From: Acidobacteriota bacterium
GTDB taxonomy: Bacteria; Acidobacteriota; Blastocatellia; Pyrinomonadales; Pyrinomonadaceae
Assembly: GCA_021323895.1 (NCBI GenBank)
Contig: JAJPKD010000162.1
Location: 1-44,851 of the forward strand
Reading direction: 5' to 3'
Length of the DNA stretch: 44,851 nucleotides
Shown here: positions 29,637 through 41,014 of the stretch, piece after piece
Numbering within the stretch: position 1 is the first letter of the stretch
Layout: every line of letters begins with the position of its first letter
Notes under the pieces: model-generated
The model's input: only the letters and a program-made list of their open reading frames with translations
Database searches by the model: none
What the model was told of the DNA's origin: nothing
Position numbers and translations under genes: made by a program

Positions 29637-30113
29637 TTAACCTACCTGCGCCGCTTCCGCGGTGCCCAACATCCTTTCCAAAGCCGGCTCCATTACTTTC
29701 GTTCCGTATTCGCCCGCGGCGAATGCTTTCAACTTGTGCTGCTCATCGAACAGATAGTACGCGGGCACATATCCTTTCTCGTTCTGAAATGCGTCGCGCA
29801 ACTTATGTTCGTTGTCGATCGCGAGCGCGTCGTTAATTTCGTATTTCGTCACCGCTTCGCGCACCGCATCAACGTTCGTGTCTTCAGGATAACGCGGCAT
29901 GTGAACCGCAACTATGCGGAGTTGACCGCGGTGCTTCTCTCGCCATTCGGCAACGCGCGGCAGGTTGTCTTTGCACATGCCGCAGCTCACTGACCAAAAG
30001 TGAATCAGGATGGGATGGCCCTCGGCGTCTTGCAGAACTTCTTCGGCTGATCCGCTGAGCCATTCAGTCGCGCCTTCGAGCGAAGGCATGGGGGTTCCAA
30101 TTCTCATGGACAT
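29637..30113 (-). CDS. thioredoxin/TlpA-like redoxin
   Basis: A 158-residue protein of the TlpA/AhpC-TSA thioredoxin class. The active site is FWSVSCGMCKDNLP (C44, C47), CGMC instead of the usual CGPC or CPPC. IRIG TPMPSLEGATEWL at the start resembles the redoxin N-terminus, and VPAYYLFDEQHKLKAFAAGEYG contains the cis-Pro (VPA). There is no signal peptide, so it is cytoplasmic. It lies downstream of ahpC on the same strand and is probably a reductant or companion of the peroxiredoxin. Confidence 0.85.
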   Translation of the reverse strand: MSMRIGTPMPSLEGATEWLSGSAEEVLQDAEGHPILIHFWSVSCGMCKDNLPRVAEWREKHRGQLRIVAVHMPRYPEDTNVDAVREAVTKYEINDALAIDNEHKLRDAFQNEKGYVPAYYLFDEQHKLKAFAAGEYGTKVMEPALERMLGTAEAAQVG

Positions 30114-30208: not shown

Positions 30209-30215
30209 GACTTAT

Positions 30216-30794
30216 TTACGCACCAATCGTCTTCTGACCCGGCCGCCACTCGGCCTGGCAAAGTCCGCCGGTTTGCAGCGCCTGGATCACACGCAGCGTC
30301 TCTTCTGCGCTGCGACCGATGTTCAGATCGTGCACAACCTTGTAACGCAGCACGCCTTCGGGATCGATCACGAACAGGCCGCGCAGCGCGATGCCCTTCT
30401 CATCGATCAGCACGCCATAGTCTTTCGACATTTGCTTGGTAATATCGGCTCCGAGCGGAAAACGCAGTCCTTCGACGCCCCCTTTTTCACGCGGCGTTTG
30501 CAGCCACGCGCGATGCGAATAAACCGAATCGGTCGAGATGCCGATGACTTCTGCGCCGATGCCCTCGAAGTCCTCGTAACGATCGCTGAACGTCGTCAAT
30601 TCAGTCGGACACACGAACGTAAAATCTAACGGATAAAAAAGCAGAACGACCCACTTGCCCCGATAATCCGAAAGCTTGACCGGCTCGTTAAGTTTCTCAA
30701 TGTTCTTGGTTGATGGAATTTCAAAATCGGGCGCGGGCTTGCCCACTTGCGCCGATTCGTATTGAGTTGCGATTGCTGTTCCTACTGCTGACAT
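30216..30794 (-). CDS. ahpC: 2-Cys peroxiredoxin (AhpC/Prx1 type)
   Basis: A 192-residue typical 2-Cys peroxiredoxin reducing hydrogen peroxide and organic peroxides. The peroxidatic Cys is in FYPLDFTFVCPTELTTF (C62), and the resolving Cys in TGGLCQAEWRPG (C179). The motif GVLIDEKGIALRGLFVIDPEG is standard for the family. It lies 71 bases downstream of the perR-like gene on the same strand, so peroxide-dependent control is likely. An AGGAGG-like ribosome site sits just upstream of the start. Confidence 0.95.
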   Translation of the reverse strand: MSAVGTAIATQYESAQVGKPAPDFEIPSTKNIEKLNEPVKLSDYRGKWVVLLFYPLDFTFVCPTELTTFSDRYEDFEGIGAEVIGISTDSVYSHRAWLQTPREKGGVEGLRFPLGADITKQMSKDYGVLIDEKGIALRGLFVIDPEGVLRYKVVHDLNIGRSAEETLRVIQALQTGGLCQAEWRPGQKTIGA

Positions 30795-30865
30795 TCTTCC
30801 TCCTATTGGTTGTTAATGCCGCGCGGATTTACCAGCGCGACGTTTCAGAATTAAGACAAACTATT

Positions 30866-31291
30866 CTATTTACTGTCGCGACAATCGGGACACAGACCAT
30901 AAAGCGTCAGATGCACCGACTCTGCCTGAAACCGCGACGCGCGCGCCGCCGCGCGTTGTAATGCGACCGTGCCCGGCAAATCAAAATCAACGAGTTTGCC
31001 GCACGAAGAGCAGACCGCGTGATCGTGACGGTAAGTCTCGCTGTCGTAACGGCTCGGGCTCTTGCCAAACGAAGCAATCTCGCGAATCAGCCCCGCGTCT
31101 TTCAAATACCGCAGTGAGTTGTAAACGGTGGCGAAGCTGATGCCTGGCATCTTCTCCTTGGCCCGCTCGAAAACTTCGGTGGCGGTCGGATGCTCGTCCC
31201 GCATCCGCACCAACTCCAGCACGAGGCTGCGCTGTCGCGTCAGACCCGGACTCCGCTGCTTTGTCTTCGTTGATTGTTTCCGATTAACCAC
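30866..31291 (-). CDS. perR: Fur-family peroxide regulator, PerR-like
   Basis: A 141-residue Fur-family repressor. The winged helix covers about 15-85 (LTRQRSLVLELVRM, HPTATEVFERAK, SFATVYNSLRYLKDAGLI). The structural zinc site is CSSC (94-97) and CPDC (134-137). Regulatory metal ligands at H34, D83, H89, H91 and D102 match the positions PerR uses; Asp rather than Glu at the last position is the feature that separates PerR from Fur. It is flanked by ahpC and the selenoperoxiredoxin gene, which supports peroxide sensing. A PerR-box-like palindrome lies 14 bases upstream of its start. Confidence 0.88.
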   Translation of the reverse strand: MVNRKQSTKTKQRSPGLTRQRSLVLELVRMRDEHPTATEVFERAKEKMPGISFATVYNSLRYLKDAGLIREIASFGKSPSRYDSETYRHDHAVCSSCGKLVDFDLPGTVALQRAAARASRFQAESVHLTLYGLCPDCRDSK

Positions 31292-31304
31292 GACTGATTA
31301 GATT

Positions 31305-31319
31305 TACAATAATTCTAAA
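31305..31319. promoter_or_regulatory. PerR-box-like operator
   Basis: TTACAATAATTCTAA matches the Bacillus-type PerR box TTATAATNATTATAA at all but two positions and keeps the dyad. It lies between the divergent perR-like and selenoperoxiredoxin genes, 14 bases from the perR start, where it could control perR itself and perhaps both directions. Confidence 0.7.
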
Positions 31320-31506
31320 TAGTAAGTCAAGCGAAGCGGCGTGACTTTCGATGAGCGCGCCTAACCGAGAGCGATTCCCCGTCCCGTCTCCTCAACTCAA
31401 GACCAACCTTCTGAAACTCCGCAGTTTGAGTCTTGAATAGCACGGCAAAACGCGTTAGCCTTAACTCGTAAGCAATACAACTGAATCATCAACAGGAGGA
31501 ATCGAC

Positions 31507-31971
31507 ATGCCTGAAGTTGGAGATATGGCTCCGGATTTCGAGCTGAAGAGTCACCTCGACAAAGACAAGAAGGTGAAGCTCTCGGATTTCCGTGGCAAGA
31601 AAAATGTAGTAATCGCGTTTTACCCGCTCGACTGGACGCCGGTCTGAACGGCGCAGATGCCCGCATACGAGGCCGACCTCGAACGCTTCGCGGGCTATGA
31701 TGCTCAGGTTCTGGGCATTTCAATTGACAGCGTTCCCTGCCACATAGCCTGGGCCAAGAGCCTCGGCGGAATTTCCTACGATCTTCTCAGCGACTTTCAT
31801 CCCAAAGGCGAAGTAGCCCGGAGCTTCGGCGCTTATCGTGAGAACGATGGCATTGCTGAACGCGCGCTTTTCATCGTCGATAAAGAAGGCAAACTCGCTT
31901 ACAAAGACATTCACGACATTTCCGATCAGCCGGACAACGAAGAGTTGTTTGAGGTGCTGCGGAAGTTGTAA
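31507..31971 (+). CDS. selenocysteine peroxiredoxin (in-frame TGA read as Sec47)
   Basis: This is a 154-residue AhpE/BCP-like peroxiredoxin if the TGA at 31645-31647 is read through. The active-site motif is YPLDWTPV[14 protein letters not shown]; cysteine homologues have TPVCTAEMP, so the TGA is exactly at the peroxidatic residue. Upstream residues ([23 protein letters not shown]) and downstream ones ([39 protein letters not shown]) are intact. AGGAGG lies six bases before the ATG at 31507. Just after TGA, CGAGG-CCGA-CCTCG (31668-31681) inside GCCCGC...GCGGGC could be the bacterial SECIS hairpin, with its loop about 25 bases downstream. A conventional gene call would start only at 31657 and lose the active site. 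Prx-like selenoproteins are known in bacteria. Confidence 0.9.
31668..31681 (+). promoter_or_regulatory. candidate bacterial SECIS hairpin of the Sec-peroxiredoxin
   Basis: CGAGG, loop CCGA, CCTCG, flanked by complementary GCCCGC (31659-31664) and GCGGGC further out. Its distance from the TGA fits the window described for bacterial SECIS elements. If the last G:C pair opens, the loop begins with G, as in the consensus. Confidence 0.5.
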
Positions 31972-31972
31972 A

Positions 31973-32005
31973 AGCAGAAGTCAGAGATCAGATGTCAGAT
32001 GTCGG
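31973..32005 (+). repeat. heptamer tandem repeat (GTCAGAT type)
   Basis: AGCAGAA, GTCAGAG, ATCAGAT, GTCAGAT, GTCGG in 7-base phase, starting right at the stop of the Sec-peroxiredoxin gene and merging into the terminator hairpin. Confidence 0.75.
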
Positions 32006-32038
32006 AATCGACGTTCCGGCATCTGGCATTTTTCTTTC
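31996..32038 (+). terminator. terminator hairpin after the Sec-peroxiredoxin gene
   Basis: CAGATGTCGGAA (31996-32007), loop TCGACG, TTCCGGCATCTG (32014-32025): a 12-bp stem with one T:G pair, followed by GCATTTTTCTTT. It is partly built from the heptamer array. Confidence 0.75.
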
Positions 32039-32066
32039 TCAAGCCCACTAAGCTAACATCTGGTTC

Positions 32067-32798
32067 ATGACCATTTCCCGCAAATGCGTTCCGTTCACGC
32101 CATTCGATCGTGAACTTGCGAAGAGCACAATCGCTATCGTTACCGCCGGCGGTGTGCACCTGAAGGATCAGGAAGCCTTCAACATCGCTGACGAACTCGG
32201 CGACCTCACTTATCGCGAGATCCCGCCAGATGTTGATTCGGCCGATCTAATGGTGACGCATCACCATTACGATCATCGTGACGCCGATGAAGATATCAAC
32301 GTCGTGTTCCCGATCGATGTGCTGCGCGATCTTCAAGCCGAGGGCTTCATCGGGGGCATCGCTAAAAAACACATCGGCTACATGGGTTACACGATGCAGT
32401 TGAAAGCAATGTACGAAGGCACGGCGCCGGAAATCGCCAACGAGATCGACAAAGGTTCGCGCGCTGATGCGGTCGTGCTCACGGGTGGTTGACCGAGCGT
32501 CTGTCACCGCACGGTCGTCGCGGTCCAACGCGAAATCGAAATGAAAGGGATCCCGACGGTTCTCATCACCGTCAGTCCGGAAGTGTCTGCGCAAATGCGT
32601 CCGCCGCGCGCGCTCTATCCGAAAGGATTTAAAATCGGGAACAGCCTGGGCCGGCCCGGCATGCGTGATTTGCAGAAGCAAGTTCTGCGCGACGCCTTGA
32701 ATCTCATGACGCAGAACACGCGGCCCGGCGAGGCAGTCACGATCGAATATCCAGAATATGGAGAGCAATACGAACCGCCGCACGTGAAGAAGATCTGA
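32067..32798 (+). CDS. GrdB-family selenoprotein (glycine/sarcosine/betaine reductase selenoprotein B-like), TGA read as Sec142
   Basis: The frame gives 243 residues if the TGA at 32490-32492 is read as Sec: DAVVLTGG-Sec-PSVCHRTVVAVQ. The N-part IAIVTAGGVHLKDQEAF, MVTHHHYDHRDADEDIN and FIGGIAKKHIGYMGY, and the C-part EIEMKGIPTVLITVSPEV and PRALYPKGFKIGNSLG, match the short GrdB-related family that exists outside clostridial Stickland pathways. The Sec and C146 form a UxxxC pair. A hairpin, ACCGC (32506-32510) / GCGGT (32520-32524), with its loop about 18 bases after TGA, is a candidate SECIS. No other glycine reductase subunits are nearby, so the role is probably redox or thiol-related rather than glycine reduction. 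It follows the Sec-peroxiredoxin by 95 bases. Confidence 0.88.
32506..32524 (+). promoter_or_regulatory. candidate bacterial SECIS hairpin of the GrdB-like gene
   Basis: ACCGC, nine-base loop ACGGTCGTC, GCGGT. Its distance from the TGA at 32490 fits a bacterial SECIS. The stem is short and the loop does not begin with G, so support is moderate. Confidence 0.4.
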
Positions 32799-32846
32799 CG
32801 TGACGCACATCACAGCCAGACAATCATTCCACCAAAACTGCTCGAC

Positions 32847-33377
32847 ATGAGCGAATCAGGCGGCGTAGAATTGCCCACAGTGAGGGCTGCCGTTAACAAA
32901 ATTATCCAACCTCGTTCGCTGCTGGCCATGGCGCTGATGTTCTGGTGCGCGGGCACGGGTTGCATGATGGTCAGTTACGCGCGTGCTTCAATGAGCGACG
33001 CTGACTCGTCGTCGGCGATCGCCAACGAACAGCCAATGGCGGGGATGTCCGCCGCGATGGATTCGCACGCGTGCTGCAAGGCGAAGCACAGGGCTCTGAA
33101 GCATTCAGCCGCCGCTAAAGAACCTTTCAATCGCGAGTTGACGCAAGTCATGCTGCCATCGCCGGCGCAGGGTGATGCGATGAGTTGCTGTCCGTTGACG
33201 AGCGGCTCGATAGTTGTCGCGTCACGCTCGCAAACCAACGACGGCGCGTCACAAGTAGCGCACACAAATTCTTCCTCACCGAAATTGGAAAACTCGAATC
33301 AAACACCGGTCGCAATTCCACCGCGACTACCTGACCAAGCGCATTCGTATTTACTCGGTTGTGCCTTCCTAATCTAG
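32847..33377 (+). CDS. exported small Cys-containing protein of the copper island
   Basis: A 176-residue protein with an N-terminal hydrophobic segment (SLLAMALMFWCAGTGCMMVSYA) preceded by about 25 polar residues. A Met-rich stretch (EQPMAGMSAAMDSHACCKAKHR) and a second CC (MSCCPLTSG) follow. It ends with PDQAHSYLLGCAFLI. The C-terminal pattern, a Pro-rich tail then (S/T)YL ending LI, resembles that of the gene at 34000. Cys, His and Met content and position suggest periplasmic metal binding. No known family recognised. Confidence 0.7.
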   Translation: MSESGGVELPTVRAAVNKIIQPRSLLAMALMFWCAGTGCMMVSYARASMSDADSSSAIANEQPMAGMSAAMDSHACCKAKHRALKHSAAAKEPFNRELTQVMLPSPAQGDAMSCCPLTSGSIVVASRSQTNDGASQVAHTNSSSPKLENSNQTPVAIPPRLPDQAHSYLLGCAFLI

Positions 33378-33435
33378 AAATCTGCCTGCAAATAACTTCG
33401 CACGCGGTCGATCGAAACTCGATTGACTGAACTAC

Positions 33436-33455
33436 GCATCAGACCATTCTGATGC
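33436..33455. promoter_or_regulatory. hairpin upstream of the Cys-rich protein gene
   Basis: GCATCAGA, loop CCAT, TCTGATGC, an 8-bp perfect stem 32 bases before the start. Around it ATCTGCCTGCA (33380-33390) and TGCAGGCAGAT (33453-33463) form a longer 11-base inverted repeat overlapping the hairpin arm, so two alternative foldings are possible. A metal-responsive operator or leader structure is a guess. Confidence 0.45.
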
Positions 33456-33487
33456 AGGCAGATATTTCTTTAACAGGAGAACTAGCT

Positions 33488-33895
33488 ATGAATACTTTTA
33501 GACGTTTTATTCCCGCCCTCGTGCTGGGACTGACAATTGCGCTGGCCGGTGTTTCGGTGGCGCAGAACGCGAGACAAACCAGCGGCGACAAGAAAGCCTC
33601 GTGCTGCAGTTGCTGTACTGATTCGTGTCCGATGATAAAAAAGGATGCGATGAAGAATCACACGATGGCCACTGACAAGGACGGCTGTTGCGGCGATTCA
33701 TGCGACATGAAGAAGAAAGACAGCATGAAGAACCACACCATGGCGACTGACAAAGACGATTGCTGTGGTGATTCGTGTGACATGAAGAATCACGCGAAAT
33801 CCGGCACGACAATGAAGATGTCTTCCGAAAAGCATGACTGCTGCGGCGATTCGTGCAATATGAAAGACATGAAGGAGATGAAACCAAAACCGTAG
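33488..33895 (+). CDS. exported Cys-rich repeat protein, putative copper-binding
   Basis: A 135-residue protein. The signal peptide (RRFIPALVLGLTIALAGVSVAQ) is followed by a hydrophilic domain with 14 Cys. CCSCCTDSC (39-47) is followed by three CCGDSC motifs at 67, 92 and 118, plus Met/His-rich linkers. A 25-residue unit starting MKNHTMATDKD is repeated exactly in tandem (units starting at 55 and 80, 75 bases apart). The pattern fits a periplasmic metallothionein-like metal sponge next to copper efflux genes. AGGAGAA lies upstream of the ATG at 33488. No named family. Confidence 0.82.
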   Translation: MNTFRRFIPALVLGLTIALAGVSVAQNARQTSGDKKASCCSCCTDSCPMIKKDAMKNHTMATDKDGCCGDSCDMKKKDSMKNHTMATDKDDCCGDSCDMKNHAKSGTTMKMSSEKHDCCGDSCNMKDMKEMKPKP

Positions 33896-33910
33896 GTCCA
33901 TCTCTTTGCA

Positions 33911-33950
33911 CAAACTGGGCGCGGCGCTGCGTCAGGCCGCGCCCAGTTTG
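33911..33950. terminator. strong 15-bp hairpin after the Cys-rich gene
   Basis: CAAACTGGGCGCGGC and GCCGCGCCCAGTTTG are perfectly complementary around a ten-base loop, 16 bases after the stop. There is no T-run (AAGTAAACC follows), so it may be a hairpin-only terminator or an RNA-stabilising 3' structure. Confidence 0.6.
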
Positions 33951-33999
33951 AAGTAAACCTTGACGCTGATTTAGAGTTGGTTCTAGAGTAGTTTTGGCG

Positions 34000-34386
34000 A
34001 TGAAGCAACGTCTCGCATCATTGGTCCTTTTGCTCGTGCTTTTCGGCGGCGCGTTCGCCGGAGTGCCAATGAGCTTTGGCGAGAACCAATGCAGCATGGG
34101 CAACATGGACATGGAGTGCTGCAAGGCGATGCTCTTGCTGCAGAGCCGAACGAAGTTGACAAGCGATGAAGAGTTGCTGTGCCTGCTCAACTGCGCGCAG
34201 AACGGAACAACGTTGCCGGCGAGTGTCGTGCGCGTGACTGCACCGGCGCAAACGATTCAGCCTTTGCTTCCGGCTTTGACCCAACCTCTTTCGATTCCAA
34301 TTTCAGTTTCAAGAGCCGCTACGCAAGCGCACAGTCCGCCCGGTTCGCCACCAACCTATCTCCGTAATCTCACCCTTCTAATCTGA
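34000..34386 (+). CDS. exported small Cys-containing protein, second copy type
   Basis: A 128-residue protein with a signal peptide (RLASLVLLLVLFGGAFAGVP). Five Cys follow in CSMGNMDMECC (31-41) and CLLNC (61-65), with Met residues nearby, then a low-complexity Thr/Pro/Ser tail ending PPTYLRNLTLLI. Its tail resembles the end of the gene at 32847. Probably a periplasmic metal-responsive protein; no family recognised. ATG 34000 is preferred over a TTG two codons upstream. Confidence 0.68.
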   Translation: MKQRLASLVLLLVLFGGAFAGVPMSFGENQCSMGNMDMECCKAMLLLQSRTKLTSDEELLCLLNCAQNGTTLPASVVRVTAPAQTIQPLLPALTQPLSIPISVSRAATQAHSPPGSPPTYLRNLTLLI

Positions 34387-34410
34387 TTCCACCCAGGCCG
34401 TGGTGTGTCT

Positions 34411-34437
34411 TCTGTAGGTTTGAGAAAACCCTGCAGA
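34411..34437. other. imperfect hairpin before the YtkA-like gene
   Basis: TCTGTAGGTTT, loop GAGA, AAACCCTGCAGA: eleven pairs with one bulged C and one T:G pair. It could be a leader structure or the end of the preceding transcript. Confidence 0.4.
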
Positions 34438-34492
34438 GGTTGGTCTATTCGTGTGTGCCTTGACGCGCACAGAATCTGTTTGGAGGAATCAG

Positions 34493-34915
34493 ATGAAGAA
34501 ATCTCTCGTGGTAATCACAATCTTAGTCGCGGCGCTTGTATTCATCGCCGCCTGCACTAAGTCAACCACCGTTTCCAACGGCAAACCGATTGCCTCGACG
34601 ACCGTCAACAACCTGACGGCGACGCTTTCGAATTCAAGCGGTCAACTCAAGACAGGCGATCAGGAAGTCACGCTCGCGTTCACTGATTCATCAGGTAAGA
34701 ACGTCGACGTCGGCGCGGTGTCACTGAACTTTCACATGCCCGCGATGGGCGGCATGGCCGCGATGAATGATGCGGTGACGTTGACGACGACCGCGACGCC
34801 TGGTGTGTACAGCGGCAAGGTGAACATCTCGATGGCCGGTGAATGGCAAGGGCAACTTGCGTTCGAAGGGCCAGCCGGTAAAGGCAAAGCGACGTTCAGC
34901 GTGACGGCCAGGTAA
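34493..34915 (+). CDS. YtkA-like domain lipoprotein
   Basis: A 140-residue protein. The lipoprotein signal (SLVVITILVAALVFIAAC, lipobox Cys about residue 20) is followed by one beta-sandwich domain. NLTATLSNSSGQLKTGDQEV, then VSLNFHMPAMGGMAAM, then GVYSGKVNISMAGEWQGQL, match the YtkA/FixH-like family. The HMPAMGGM Met/His motif suggests copper binding in the periplasm. GGAGG lies eight bases before the ATG at 34493; the frame is open to 34451. It immediately precedes cusA. Confidence 0.86.
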   Translation: MKKSLVVITILVAALVFIAACTKSTTVSNGKPIASTTVNNLTATLSNSSGQLKTGDQEVTLAFTDSSGKNVDVGAVSLNFHMPAMGGMAAMNDAVTLTTTATPGVYSGKVNISMAGEWQGQLAFEGPAGKGKATFSVTAR

Positions 34916-34919
34916 AGAT

Positions 34920-35001
34920 TTGTCCGTTGTCAGAGTTGTCCGTGGTGGTTGCATAGGCCACGGGAGAACCAGACTACTGACAACTGACTACTAACAACTG
35001 A
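34920..35001. repeat. inverted heptamer arrays before cusA
   Basis: Left units TTGTCCG, TTGTCAG; right units CTACTGA, CAACTGA, CTACTAA, CAACTGA. TTGTCAG pairs with CTGACAA (34977-34983), and CCGTGG with CCACGG inside. The right arm ends one base before the cusA GTG start, so it overlaps the ribosome site region. Confidence 0.8.
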
Positions 35002-35002
35002 C

Positions 35003-38000
35003 GTGATTCAGAAGTTAATTGAAGTCGCAATGCGCAATCGCGGTCTGGTGATCGCGATCTATCTCGGGCTCGCCGCCTGGGGTTATTGGGCATTGCTGCG
35101 CACGCCGATCGATGCGATTCCCGACCTGTCTGAGAACCAGGTCATCGTCTTCACCGATTGGCCGGGCCGTTCTCCGCAAGAGGTCGAAGATCAGGTGACC
35201 TATCCGCTGGTGACGAACCTGCAAGGTTTGCCCGGCGTGCGCGTGGTGCGCGCAAGTTCGGCGTTCGGCTTTTCGATGATCAATATCATCTTTGAAGACA
35301 ACGTCGATCTTTACTGGGCGCGTACGCGCGTGCTGGAGCGTTTGAATCTTGTCACCGCGCAGTTGCCGCAAGGCGTCACTCCCACGCTCGGCCCGGATGC
35401 AACCGGCGTCGGTCAAATCTTCTGGTACACGTTGGAGAGCGATCAGATGAGCCTGCGCGACCTGCGCAGCTTGCAGGACTGGTTCGTTCGCTATCAGTTG
35501 AACTCAGTGCCCGGTGTCGCCGAAGTCGCCAGCGTCGGCGGCTACGTCCAGCAGTACCAGGTCGACGTAGATCCGAACAAGCTGCGCTCATACGGCCTGC
35601 CACTGTCGATGGTCGTCGAAGCTGTCGAACGATCGAACCGCAACGTCGGCGGCAACGTAGTCGAGCAGGCGGGCCAGTGGTCGGTCGTTCGGGGCGTCGG
35701 CCTAATCGAATCAAGTGCGGACATCGAGAACATCCCGCTGACGGCGCAGAATGGCATTCCGATTTACGTCAAGAACGTCGCGACAGTGAAACTCGGCAAT
35801 GCGTTTCGTCAGGGAGCGCTGGACAAGAACGGCAAAGAGGCAGTCGGTGGGGTCGTCATCGCGCGATATGGCGTGAACACGCTGGCAGTCATCGATGCGA
35901 TTAAACAGAAGATCGCAGCCATTCAAAGCGGCCTGCCAAAAGGCGTTCAGGTCGTTCCCTTCTACGATCGCACGCAACTGATTCAACGCGCCACGCACAC
36001 TTTGAAGCGCGCGCTGATTGAAGAGCTGATCCTCGTCACGCTCGCGCACATCCTGTTTCTCGCGCACTTCCGCTCGATTCTGATCGTCACGATTCCTTTG
36101 CCGCTCGCAGTACTGCTCGCGTTTCTGTTCATGTACTACGCCGGAATCAGCTCGCATCTAATGTCGCTGTCGGGTATTGCGATCGCGATTGGCGTGCTGG
36201 TTGACGCGGGAATTGTCGTCACGGAAAACGCTTTTCGCTTCATCGAAAAGCGAAAGATCGACACGAGGGATCGGCCGCTGGTCTGGCAAACGGTTCTGGA
36301 GTCAACGCGTTTGGTTGGTCGTCCGATTTTCTTCTCGATGGCGATCATTATCCTCGCATTCGTGCCCGTGTTCGCGCTGACGGGCGAAGAAGGAAAGCTG
36401 TTTCATCCGCTGGCATTCACCAAGACGTTCGCGATGGTGGGCGCGACGATCATCGCCGTGACGTTGGTGCCGGTGCTCTGCACTCTGCTTTTGCGCGGCA
36501 AATTCCATGCAGAGCAAGCCAATCCGGTGATGCGCGCGCTGCACTTCATTTATCGCCCGGTGTTGCGATTTGCATTGAACCATCGGCTTATCACAGTGGC
36601 GCTCGCCGTGCTGCTGTTCGCCGGTGCGTTGTTTCTCGCCACGGGCATCGGCAAAGAGTTCATGCCGCCGCTCAACGAAGGCGACTTAATGTTTATGCCG
36701 GTGACCGATCCAGCGATCTCGATCGATGAAGCGCTGAAGATCACGCAACGTCAGGACGAAATTCTCAAGACCGTTCCCGAAGTCGAATGGGCCGTCGGCA
36801 AAGCCGGCCGCGCGGAAACTTCAACCGATCCGTCGCCGATCAATATGACGGAAACGGTGATCCACTTGAAAGATCCGGCGCAGTGGCGAGCAGGCATGAC
36901 GCGCGAATCGCTGATCGCTGAGCTGGACGAGAAGTTGCGCATGCCCGGCGTCACAAACATTTGGACGCAGCCGATTAAGAACCGGATCGACATGCTTTCA
37001 ACCGGCATTCGTTCGCAGGTTGGCATCAAGATCTTCGGAAACGATCTGAAGACGCTCGAAGACTTATCACGCCGCACTGCCGAACTTTTACGCAATGTTC
37101 CTGGCGCGAAAGACGTGTACCCGGAACAAATCAGCGGCGCGCCTTACATCGACATCAAAATCAATCGCACCGCCGCCGCGCGCTACGGTATCGACCAGCA
37201 AACCATCAACGAGGCCATCGAAAAAGGCATTGGCGAAACAAACCTGACGGTGACGATTGAAGGCCGGCGTCGCTTCCCAGTGCGCGTGCGTTTCGCGCCG
37301 GAGTTTCGTGGCAACGTGCCGGCGATCGGAGCAATTCCGGTTACTTCGCCGACAGGCCAGCCGATTCCGCTTTCACAACTCACCGAGATTACCCAAGTGC
37401 AAGGGCCGACGATGATTTCAAGCGAGAACGGACTGCTGCGCGGCACGGTTCTGTTGAACGTGCGCGGTCGCGATGTCGGCGGGTTTGTTGACGAAGCCAA
37501 AGCCGCAATCGCGCGGCAAGTGCAGATGCCGACCGGTTATTACGTCGAATGGAGCGGCGAATACGAAAACCAACAACGCGCGCGCAGCCGTCTGCTTCTG
37601 GTTGTCCCGATCGTGCTGATTGTGATCTTCGCGTTGCTTTACATCACTTATCACTCGGCGCTCGAAGCAGCGCACGTGCTGATGGCCGTTCCTTTCGCTT
37701 TGACCGGCGGCATCTATTTGCTCTGGGCACTGGGTTACGACTTCTCAGTCGCGGTGTGGGTTGGCTTCATCGCGCTATTCGGCACGGCAGTGCAGACGGC
37801 GGTGGTTATGGTGATCTATTTGGAAGAGGCAGTCGAGCGAAAGAAGGCCGAAGTCGGTCAATTGGATCGATCTTCACTGATCGAAGCGGTAATGGAAGGC
37901 GCGCTGCTGCGTTTGCGGCCAAAGGTAATGACGGTTTCGACCGTGGTCGCTTCGCTGCTTCCAATTATGTGGAGCACGAGCGCAGGCGCGGAAGTCATGA

Positions 38001-38122
38001 AGCCGCTGGCGACGCCAGTCCTGGGCGGAATGGTTTCCAGCCTGCTGCATGTCTTGGTGGTGACGCCGGTGATTTTTTTCTGGTTGCGGGAGCGTGAGTT
38101 GAAGCGAGAGATCGGGACCTGA
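35003..38122 (+). CDS. cusA: heavy-metal RND efflux pump, CusA/Ag-Cu type
   Basis: A 1039-residue inner-membrane transporter of the HME-RND family. [20 protein letters not shown] is the family N-terminus. The TM4 proton-relay motif is [15 protein letters not shown]. Three Met positions of the E. coli CusA copper/silver pathway appear conserved, in LMFMP, INMTET and [10 protein letters not shown], which favours Cu(I)/Ag(I) over zinc/cobalt. It ends in a typical TM11-12 segment ([16 protein letters not shown]). The start is GTG at 35003. It works with the TolC-type protein and CusB that follow. Confidence 0.95.
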
Positions 38123-38129
38123 ATTCAAG

Positions 38130-39740
38130 ATGAGAAGTTCGCGCCAACCAGCCCACCAAGTGGGCGGCAAAGTAATAGCCCCGGGCGTCAGCCCGGGGTT
38201 AGGGGTTTTGTTTTTGTCTGAGCCCGCAAAGCGGGCGACAGATCTCTGCAACGGTGTCAATAAACGACTATTGGTCTGTCGCCCCTTCGGGGCTCGCAAT
38301 GTCTATTCAATCGGCTACCCCGGGCTTACGCTCGGGGCTATATTCTGCCACCTGCTTCGCAGGCTCGTTGTCGCGTTTCTGCTGACCAGCCTCAATGGAA
38401 CAACAGTTTCTGCGCAACTTATTAAGATCCCGGAGGTCCCAGTCCCTGCACTAGCCGTCACGCAAAACTCAAACGGTTCGCAACCGCAATCACCACTCTC
38501 TGGTTATCTCGATCAAACCAACGGCATGACTGCGGATGAGGCGGTTGCCTACGCGCTCGCTCACAACGCTGAACTCGAGGCCGCTCGCAAGGAAATCGAT
38601 GCGGCGCGCGCCATGGTCAAACAAGCGCGCCTGCGCGCGAACCCGATGCTGGACGTGGAAGGCACGCGCCAAATTCCGCCGGGCAAAGACAACAGCATCA
38701 TGGCCGGCGTGACGCTGCCGCTCGAACGCGGGGGCCGCGTGCCGGCGCGCATCGCGGTGGCCGAACGCGAAGTGGAAGTGCGCGAGCGTGAAGTTGCGAA
38801 TCGCGAGCGCGTGTTGGCAGGCGACGTGCGAATGAAGTTTGGTGAAGCTCTAGCCGAAGCCTTGAAGCTTTCGTTCACCAATCAACTGATCGAAGCGAAC
38901 CAACAGAGTCTTAATCTTATTGCCGCACGTGTTAACGAAGGCGCAACGCCACCGCTGGAACAGAACATGGCGCTCGTTGAGTTGAATCGATTGAAGTCGA
39001 AGCGCGAAACCGCGGAAGGCAAAGTCGAAGTAGCCATGCTCGAACTGCGGAACTTGATCGGCATGCCGCCGGAACAGGCGCTGCGTCTGCGCGGCGACTT
39101 CGATCACTTGATCGACCAATTGCCGCCGGTCAGTGATGCAACTGTGCAATCGGTGCGCGAGCGTCCGGACATTCAGGGATTTCGCGCGATTGAGAGTCTC
39201 GCGGCGGCGCGCATCGAACAAGCGCGGGCGGAAGGCCGCTGGGACGCGAGCATCACCGCCGGCTATCAACGGATGAATTCGAGTTTTCCGGTCTTTGGTG
39301 TTGACGAGCACCGCGGATTGCAGCCGGTGAAGGACGTGTTTCATTTTCTCAAGCTCGGCGTCTCGATCAATTTGCCGGTGCGCAACAAGAACCACGGAGC
39401 GATCGAGGCTGCTGGCGCTGAATCCGAAGCAGCAAAGTCGCGACGCGAATTCGCCGAGCTGACTGTGCGCCGCGAAGTCGCATCCGCTTACGCGCAATAC
39501 GATCGCGCGGTCAAGGCCGAAGAGATCTTTCGCGTCGGCGTGCGCGACGCCGCCAAAGCTAATCTTGATGTCGTGCGGCAGACCTATGAACTTGGATCGA
39601 AGAGTTTGATCGATTACATCGGCGAGCAGCGTCGCTTCATCGAGTTGGAAAATGATTTCATCGACGCACAGCTTGCGGTTTACAACGCCCGCGTCGAAAT
39701 CATGCGCGCCACCGCTTCACCGGAGTTAATAAAGAAATGA
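38130..39740 (+). CDS. CusC/TolC-type outer membrane efflux protein
   Basis: The frame encodes 536 residues. Residues from about 115 on are a TolC-family protein: MTADEAVAYALAHNAELEAA, then long alpha-helical stretches with Ala and Glu, and ESLAAARIEQARAEGRWDAS starting the second repeat. It forms the outer-membrane duct of the Cus pump. The first about 80 residues are encoded by an array of palindromic repeats (38147-38370). The true signal peptide is probably LLRRLVVAFLLTSLNGTTVSAQ at about 75-96. The repeat therefore seems to have inserted between an original start (38130, seven bases after cusA) and the signal peptide, or the real start is internal and non-ATG. Confidence 0.88.
   Translation: MRSSRQPAHQVGGKVIAPGVSPGLGVLFLSEPAKRATDLCNGVNKRLLVCRPFGARNVYSIGYPGLTLGAIFCHLLRRLVVAFLLTSLNGTTVSAQLIKIPEVPVPALAVTQNSNGSQPQSPLSGYLDQTNGMTADEAVAYALAHNAELEAARKEIDAARAMVKQARLRANPMLDVEGTRQIPPGKDNSIMAGVTLPLERGGRVPARIAVAEREVEVREREVANRERVLAGDVRMKFGEALAEALKLSFTNQLIEANQQSLNLIAARVNEGATPPLEQNMALVELNRLKSKRETAEGKVEVAMLELRNLIGMPPEQALRLRGDFDHLIDQLPPVSDATVQSVRERPDIQGFRAIESLAAARIEQARAEGRWDASITAGYQRMNSSFPVFGVDEHRGLQPVKDVFHFLKLGVSINLPVRNKNHGAIEAAGAESEAAKSRREFAELTVRREVASAYAQYDRAVKAEEIFRVGVRDAAKANLDVVRQTYELGSKSLIDYIGEQRRFIELENDFIDAQLAVYNARVEIMRATASPELIKK
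38147..38370. repeat. array of palindromes, CCCCGGGC/GAGCCCC type
   Basis: Hairpins in order: GCCCACCAAGTGGGC; CCCCGGGC-GTCA-GCCCGGGG (38179-38198); GCCCGC-AAA-GCGGGC; GCCCC-TTCG-GGGC near 38281; CCCCGGGC-TTAC-GCTCGGGG; CCTGC-TTC-GCAGG. Several are in GAGCCC...GCGACAG and GGGGCTATATTCTGCCACC contexts that I recognise as a dispersed repeat type in soil bacteria. It lies within the open frame of the outer membrane gene. Confidence 0.85.
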
Positions 39741-41014
39741 GCGAAGAACCTAAACAAGTTTCCCCAACCAGTGAATCGCCACCAAAGCGCGGTTCACGGC
39801 GAACCGGAATCATCGTTGCAATCGTTGCCCTGGTCGCCATCGTCGCGATTGTTGTTGTCTGGCTGCTGTGGCCTAAGCCAACCGGCAAACCTGTCGCCGC
39901 GCCGCGCACAGTTTCTTTTGAGCAATCATCCGAGACACCGGCGCCAACGGGGGAACAGAAGCTAACGCTGACGGCTGAGCAACTTCGCAGCGTGCAACTG
40001 AAGATCGAAACCGTTGGTGAAGCGCCGGCAACAGAAGCCGCCGGCCAGATGGCCACCGGCGTCGTGCAGGCGAACAGTTACAAAGAAACGCCCGTCATAT
40101 CACTCGTGGCCGGCATCGTGCGCAGCGTCAGCGCGGAACTCGGACAAAACGTGCGGCGCGGTCAACGTGTCGCGGTTGTCTTTAGTAATGAACTCGCTGA
40201 TGCGCAATCGCGTTACTTAACGGCGGTTGCGGTCTTGGATGAACATCATCGGCATCACATGCGCACGGCGAAGCTCGTCGAGATTGGCGCGGCCAGCCGA
40301 CAGGAACTCGAGATGGCCACGTCGCAACTGAGCGATGCTGAGTCGAACCTTGCGAACCTTCGTCAGAAACTGATGCTGCTTGGATTGTCGGCTCAACGAA
40401 TCGACGCGTTGAAGTCTGTTTCGCAAATCAGTTCTGAAGTCGCCGTGAACGCACCGAACTCAGGGACAATCACCAGCCGCACCGTCAACCCAGGTGAAGT
40501 GATCGAAGCGAACAAAGAACTGATGCGCGTGACAGATTTGTCGACCGTTTGGGTCGTCGGACAGGTTTACGAAAAGGACCTTGCGACGGTGCGTGTCGGC
40601 AGTGGGGCGAACGTAAGTTCAGACGCTTATCCGGGGCAGCTGTTTCGCGGGCGCGTGACGTACGTCGATCCGAAGATCGATCCGGCGACGCGCACCGCTC
40701 AAGTCAGAATCGAACTGGCGAATCCGCGTCAGATATTCAAGATTGGCATGTTCGTTAACGTCGCATTCGGCGCGCTCGGTGTGGCCGAGAAAACGATGCC
40801 GATGGTCTCGAAAGATGCGGTCCAGACGATTAACAATCAGCAGATTGTGTTTGTCGCAACCGAGAAGCCGAACGAGTTTCTCGTACGACCAGTTCGCGTC
40901 GGCACTGAGACGAACGGGTTTTATCCCGTGATTGAAGGACTGCATCCAAGAGAGCGCGTCGTGACGCAGGGAAGCTTCTTACTGCGGGCTGAATGGTTAA
41001 AGACGCGCGCATAA
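39737..41014 (+). CDS. cusB: CusB-type periplasmic adaptor (membrane fusion protein)
   Basis: A 425-residue protein with an N-terminal anchor (GIIVAIVALVAIVAIVVVWLL). A lipoyl/barrel-sandwich hybrid follows (SLVAGIVRSVSAELGQNVRRG and SGTITSRTVNPGEVIEANKEL), with a helical hairpin between them (LDEHHRHHMRTAKLVEIGAA). A beta-barrel domain (VWVVGQVYEKDLATVRVG) and C-terminal YPVIEGLHPRERVVTQGSFLL complete it. It links the RND pump to the outer-membrane duct. It overlaps the previous gene by four bases (ATGA). The HHRHH cluster in the hairpin tip is unusual and may bind metal. Confidence 0.92.
   Translation: MSEEPKQVSPTSESPPKRGSRRTGIIVAIVALVAIVAIVVVWLLWPKPTGKPVAAPRTVSFEQSSETPAPTGEQKLTLTAEQLRSVQLKIETVGEAPATEAAGQMATGVVQANSYKETPVISLVAGIVRSVSAELGQNVRRGQRVAVVFSNELADAQSRYLTAVAVLDEHHRHHMRTAKLVEIGAASRQELEMATSQLSDAESNLANLRQKLMLLGLSAQRIDALKSVSQISSEVAVNAPNSGTITSRTVNPGEVIEANKELMRVTDLSTVWVVGQVYEKDLATVRVGSGANVSSDAYPGQLFRGRVTYVDPKIDPATRTAQVRIELANPRQIFKIGMFVNVAFGALGVAEKTMPMVSKDAVQTINNQQIVFVATEKPNEFLVRPVRVGTETNGFYPVIEGLHPRERVVTQGSFLLRAEWLKTRA

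Follow-up and report, generated by a model that had tools for sequence, protein, structure and literature searches.

The window analysed here, a 44,851-nucleotide stretch of an Acidobacteriota genome (Pyrinomonadaceae), holds two consecutive forward-strand genes that are each interrupted by an in-frame TGA, and raises the question of whether the second gene is a genuine selenoprotein gene and, if so, what its product does beside the first. A first-pass annotation had read it as a complete, stand-alone GrdB-like selenoprotein with a role outside Stickland metabolism. The features at issue are as follows.

31507..31971, + strand: peroxiredoxin (Prx) gene, Sec47 in WTPV-U-T (TxxU), in-frame TGA at 31645-31647, no other conserved Cys
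32067..32798, + strand: PrdB-like selenoprotein gene, 243 aa, Sec142-x-x-x-Cys146 (U-P-S-V-C), stop TGA at 32796-32798
32490..32492, + strand: in-frame TGA, predicted Sec codon, TGA in 45/46 non-redundant orthologues and TGC in one natural Cys homologue
32506..32524, + strand: bacterial SECIS hairpin, ACCGCAC-GGUC-GU(N)GCGGU, 7 bp with one bulged base and GU in the loop

Recoding of the in-frame TGA

Under the standard code the listed PrdB-like open reading frame stops at 141 aa; with the TGA read as Sec it yields 243 aa, the same frame running from the ATG at 32067 through TGA 32490-32492 to the TGA at 32796-32798 and placing Sec142 in the context TGG-U-PSVCHRT. A PrdB-model search of 60 relatives recovered 22 clade orthologues (own genome counted), of which 21 carry TGA here and the other (L016, genome G037) carries TGC. 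Scanning a named genome collection with two peptide patterns added 50 loci, nearly all from Acidobacteriota MAGs (Pyrinomonadaceae/Blastocatellia), and over both sets the codon is covered by 69 PrdB-like loci, 64 of which have TGA there. The remaining five have Cys, namely L016 in the main clade and the outgroups L114, L117, L118 and L119, which supplies the Cys homologues that the first-pass annotation had proposed to look for. Locus L110 was left out as an extension to a further phylum; it lies on a 3-kb contig binned as Deltaproteobacteria, the scaffold name belongs to a soil series common to several Acidobacteria loci, and a binning error is no less likely than transfer. In one MAG (L035) an additional in-frame TGA stands at residue 178, an Arg codon elsewhere, and is probably a sequence error or the mark of a decaying copy.

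Codon-position difference rates among the 46 non-redundant orthologues are.202/.136/.551 before the TGA and.196/.129/.534 after it, and since the rates are equal on both sides, the downstream part is under the same protein-level selection. The SECIS loop starts 21 nt past the TGA. Codons +5, +6, +7, +8 and +10 after Sec are near-fixed synonymously (CAC, CGC, ACG, GTC and GCG), with synonymous differences of 0-0.13 at these frozen codons versus family means of 0.40-0.61; codon +9 is synonymously free, and its third base is the SECIS bulge. RNAalifold applied to 45 sequences independently yields the same hairpin, with the free base as the bulge and a loop of GGUC in 42 sequences and AGUU in 3. 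In the Cys homologue L016 the loop is altered to GATT and the stem is weaker (-5.5 vs -7.8 kcal/mol), and in the other Cys homologues the hairpin does not fold. Single-sequence folding of 32493-32530, the range named in the first-pass annotation and within which the hairpin falls, does not favour it (z 0.42), and an Rfam gathering scan of the window gave no match, SECIS included. As thermodynamics alone is unconvincing, the case for the SECIS rests on frozen synonymous sites and the alignment and not on energy. For the corresponding region of the Prx gene RNAalifold found no common fold and single-sequence folding gave z -1.6, so that its SECIS is supported to a lower standard than that of the PrdB-like gene.

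The genome also encodes tRNA-Sec (selC) with a TCA anticodon, SelB (375 bits), SelA (530 bits) and SelD (362 bits), the last of which itself contains an in-frame TGA (SG-U-AAKLAPG as read from the sequence). A complete set of selA, selB, selC and selD is thus present in one genome with the PrdB-like gene. Homologues ending before the TGA and a lack of selB or selC, either of which had been named beforehand as speaking against recoding, were looked for, and neither was found. A true stop or a sequencing error, leaving a truncated gene or pseudogene that would end at 141 aa as in standard annotation, is refuted by the same-codon TGA in 45/46 orthologues, equal purifying selection past it, the SECIS and the complete Sec machinery, and we give it practically no weight. 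The comparative evidence confirms the PrdB-like gene as a true selenoprotein gene, with UGA 32490 predicted to be decoded as Sec. The earlier reading of an unshifted frame continuing past the TGA is therefore borne out, as is the argument that two consecutive TGA-bearing genes are very unlikely to be errors, the TGA of the neighbouring Prx being conserved too. Annotation that ends at the TGA cuts both genes short.

Family assignment and structure

The D-proline reductase PrdB model (TIGR04483) matches residues 10-230 of the product with 193.2 bits, a span of 221 residues that takes in nearly the whole model, and the equivalog cut-off of 300 bits is not reached. GrdB-type models score 57-67 bits, among them TIGR01918 with 66.8 bits and TIGR01917 with 63.7 bits (cut-off 602). 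PF07355 is matched with 49.2 bits, above its gathering threshold of 22 bits, though only over profile positions 213-345, the C-terminal part, of a full GrdB of about 430 model positions. By these profile scores the product of 32067-32798 is classed as a PrdB-like member of the PrdB/GrdB superfamily, neither GrdB proper nor a certified PrdB. The GG-Sec-PSVC motif given in the first-pass annotation stands, whereas the GrdB name gives way (PrdB 193 vs GrdB 67 bits), and the claim of a full GrdB fails because only the C-terminal part of that model is covered.

The protein resembles PrdB in length, in the domain and in a Sec in the equivalent motif, and differs from it in its score, in the absence of PrdA from the genome, in having a Prx partner and in its spacing, UxxxC (U-P-S-V-C) in place of the UxxC of PrdB. 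With GrdB, GrdF and GrdH of glycine, sarcosine and betaine reductase (PF07355) it shares the Sec-bearing half by distant homology; in contrast to these it has no N-terminal half, and the genome lacks GrdA and the pyruvoyl subunit (PF09338).

The orthologues cluster as a single group with 98/96 support in a 66-sequence tree, and closest to it stand L114 and proteins of the Korobacter/Acidobacteriaceae type with U or C spaced as UxxC/CxxC. Among the sequences aligned, the extra residue of U-P-x-V-C occurs in this group alone, and Cys146 is invariant (46/46), as are the pocket-like residues HHHYDH and RKCVPFTP. The AlphaFold2 model (mean pLDDT 92.4) places Sec142 in a loop preceding helix 145-159 and Cys146 in the first turn of that helix. 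Sequence searches of the PDB, run with the protein and with a 36-row profile, turned up no real relative; the top match of the profile was a designed protein and was judged to be chance. Foldseek returned nothing below 0.001 for the model, and the best VIA-align hits (Z 8.1, Rossmann/LacI-like folds) were set aside as being at the level usual for unmatched models.

Two further members of the superfamily were noted. Another contig of the same genome (C150, L002:1414-2217) carries a second, Sec-less paralogue of the PrdB/GrdB family, in which Ser takes the place of Sec (PASPLCH); in the same family TGA-free relatives are common. In the PrdB-like gene of locus L043 (genome G040) the motif contains a pair of in-frame TGA codons (U-P-I-U, UxxU), at translated positions 140 and 143 (0-based), possibly a double-Sec active site.

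Pairing with a selenocysteine peroxiredoxin

The upstream gene matches AhpC/TSA peroxiredoxins with 133 bits. Column 47 is its only conserved Cys/Sec position: at column 78, 25 of 44 sequences have Cys, 18 have Ser and 1 has Thr. With a peroxidatic Sec and no conserved resolving Cys the protein is of the 1-Cys(Sec) type. It shares the TxxU active site with the Sec peroxiredoxin PrxU (NF040737), from which it differs in scoring 79 bits against a cut-off of 270 and in having no conserved resolving Cys.

Among the relatives, a Sec-Prx gene lies directly upstream on the same strand, with a gap of 72-533 bp, in all 21 loci that reach that far (own genome counted), and the same arrangement is found in main-clade loci of the named collection wherever the contig extends far enough. 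In this Acidobacteriota clade the PrdB-like gene thus follows a Sec-Prx wherever the contig reaches. By genome, the PrdB-like gene occurs in 22 of the 60 relatives, in every case together with the Prx; a further four carry only the Prx and none carries only the PrdB-like gene, although these genomes are phylogenetically related and the pairing counts are not independent events. The survey of related genomes that the first-pass annotation had suggested therefore finds the pair kept, and makes its term "stand-alone" misleading, as the PrdB-like gene never occurs without an upstream Sec-Prx where this can be seen. Of the Prx-only genomes, G003 and G044 have Sec and G012 and G033 have no TGA. More distant Acidobacteriota PrdB-like genes (L037-L069), with UxxC, lack a Prx within 1.5 kb.

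In G037 both genes of the pair have Cys and SelB is kept, and in G048 and G056, of the same family, both have Sec; this double switch is one event only. L114 has a Cys PrdB-like gene next to a Sec Prx, which indicates that the Sec/Cys states of the two genes are not strictly coupled.

Absence of Stickland reductase partners

PrdA (TIGR04480), the PF09338 pyruvoyl subunit and GrdA are absent from the genome under study and from 20 of the 21 other carriers of the PrdB-like gene, which extends genome-wide the earlier remark that no glycine reductase operon lies nearby. The exception, G051, serves as a positive control: its glycine reductase genes are on contig C53 and its Prx-PrdB-like pair is on contig C44. 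The C53 genes (30214-36140) comprise GrdA with an internal TGA, two PF09338 subunits and two TGA-bearing matches to PrdB/GrdB models, likely a glycine/betaine-type reductase cluster in an Acidobacteriota member of the same class.

The window also encodes cytochrome oxidase subunit I. A subunit of D-proline, glycine, sarcosine or betaine reductase working in Stickland fermentation would explain the matches to PF07355 (49 bits) and TIGR01918 (66.8 bits); against it are the missing partners, the score under the PrdB equivalog cut-off and the cytochrome oxidase subunit, which points to respiration. Unless the partners were lost in gaps of the draft assembly, their absence refutes such a role, which we consider highly improbable, in line with the first-pass view that the protein is not a Stickland enzyme.

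Gene neighborhood

Upstream of the pair are genes of the peroxide response, and a strong terminator-like hairpin stands between the two selenoprotein genes.

29637..30113, - strand: thioredoxin/TlpA-like protein, which adjoins the pair in L096 too
30216..30794, - strand: AhpC-type 2-Cys peroxiredoxin, a peroxide-stress neighbor
30866..31291, - strand: PerR/Fur-family regulator, divergent from prx
31990..32031, + strand: terminator-like hairpin and T run between prx and the PrdB-like gene

L074 keeps the window order of perR, ahpC and the Trx-like gene beside the pair. In L096 all are on one strand in a new order, perR-ahpC-prx(U)-prdB-like(U)-trxlike, which suggests a peroxide-response cluster together with a candidate final reductant. 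Nine other window genes were tested, and none adjoins the pair in most relatives.

The terminator-like hairpin was detected by script in all four genus members that carry the pair (the window, L024, L027 and L030). In L018, L021, L031, L026 and L033 small ORFs lie between the two genes (about 100-160 aa of coiled-coil type, or 44 aa), and in most cases a GGGCTGAA..TTCAGCCC-type hairpin precedes them. Given the terminator-like hairpin and the intervening ORFs, prx and the PrdB-like gene may be transcribed separately.

Downstream of the pair, 32847-33377 and 33452-33895 encode Cys-rich proteins, one with CCGDSCDMKK repeats; they precede a YtkA-like gene and an AcrB/CusA-type efflux set (35003-41014), and copper or other metal handling is possible for this region.

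Proposed function of the pair

The constant pairing suggests that in these soil bacteria the two selenoproteins work as one antioxidant pair and not in amino-acid fermentation. Our main reading, to which we give a probability of about 0.5, is a peroxide-reduction pair in which the UxxxC PrdB-like protein services the 1-Sec Prx. SelB and tRNA-Sec would insert Sec at UGA 32490 under the direction of the hairpin 32506-32524, and the PrdB-like protein and the upstream Sec-Prx would form one functional unit. The Prx selenolate (Sec47) would reduce peroxide and become a selenenic acid. 1-Cys peroxiredoxins are expected to need an external reductant, and the same is expected of this Prx since it has no resolving Cys; for the oxidized form, Sec142/Cys146 of the PrdB-like protein would serve as that reductant. 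Lying at a helix N-terminus, these residues could close to a U142-C146 selenenylsulfide, which a thioredoxin-type reductant would then reopen. Taking as observed the conserved recoded TGA, its SECIS, the Sec machinery, the fixed pairing and the absence of both a Prx resolving Cys and proline/glycine reductase partners, we infer both the final reductant and the passage of electrons between the two proteins, the simplest reading being that the PrdB-like protein reduces, or repairs, oxidized Prx.

In favor of the peroxide-reduction pair, prx stays upstream while other neighbors change; the peroxide-stress neighbors perR, ahpC and the Trx-like gene occur in the window, L074 and L096; the Prx has no second conserved Cys where the PrdB-like protein has its invariant Cys146; both genes switched to Cys in G037; and PrdA, PF09338 and GrdA are missing from the genome, the pair in G051 lying apart from the glycine reductase contig. 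Against it, gene pairing by itself does not show electron transfer, the genes are separated by 72-533 bp in the relatives and by a terminator-like hairpin in the window, L114 is mixed and the Cys switch is a single event. Moreover, the Prx survives without the PrdB-like gene in G003 and G044, where another reductant must serve. More specifically, and more tentatively, the UxxxC protein might be a dedicated selenol-based reductase of the 1-Sec Prx, outside the thioredoxin, glutaredoxin and AhpF families and recruited from the Stickland-enzyme superfamily, with two selenoproteins acting in series to reduce peroxide.

A serious alternative, which we hold to be plausible though less likely than not, is that the PrdB-like protein is an independent reductase cleaving a C-N or other bond of some small molecule without a pyruvoyl subunit, and that the Prx protects its oxygen-sensitive selenol or clears a by-product. 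In its favor are near full-length homology to the D-proline reductase Sec subunit and the invariant pocket-like HHHYDH and RKCVPFTP, and the Acidobacteriota UxxC relatives without a nearby Prx indicate that the fold has other uses. That the PrdB-like gene is not found without the Prx, while the Prx is found alone, fits protection and the peroxide-reduction pair alike. The missing pyruvoyl partner and the failure of any of the nine other window genes to stay beside the pair argue against an independent enzyme.

Mere co-regulation of two non-interacting proteins in a peroxide or selenium stress regulon, which would account for perR and ahpC adjoining the pair in the window and in L074 and L096 and for the terminator-like hairpin between the genes, is unlikely, because the pair persists across Blastocatellia where perR and ahpC do not, and because co-regulation alone leaves the absence of Prx-less PrdB-like genes unexplained.

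Relation to known selenoproteins and significance

Since 2005 it has been known that PrdB selenoproteins occur on their own outside Stickland organisms. They were the third most abundant selenoprotein family in the Sargasso Sea set, with 42 genes (PMC1088965), and number 235 members with the motif UxxC in GOS (PMC2398784); Anaeromyxobacter and Geobacter, too, are listed as having proline-reductase selenoproteins (PMC1794560). These are alike in being PrdB-family members that are abundant or non-clostridial, and differ from the present clade in their reported UxxC motif, the proteins described here having UxxxC and being paired with a Prx. That part of our finding is accordingly not new, having been published already (PMC1088965, PMC2398784). 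Adjacent selenoprotein pairs listed earlier are Prx/SelW, Prx/Prx-like 2 and Prx-like 1/AhpD-like (PMC2398784), and published pairs include prdB-prdC, grdA-grdB and Prx-SelW (PMC13188914, PMC2398784); neither the Prx-PrdB pair nor the UxxxC clade turned up among the open-licence papers searched. The selenoprotein itself varies a known family, and the part worth following is its pairing with the Prx.

In the literature searched, no function beyond proline reductase is named for the PrdB-like selenoproteins abundant in sea water. A clade tied to one peroxiredoxin makes PrdB-like function directly testable with two small proteins, and if the peroxide-reducing chain proves true, a fold of amino-acid fermentation would gain an aerobic antioxidant use.
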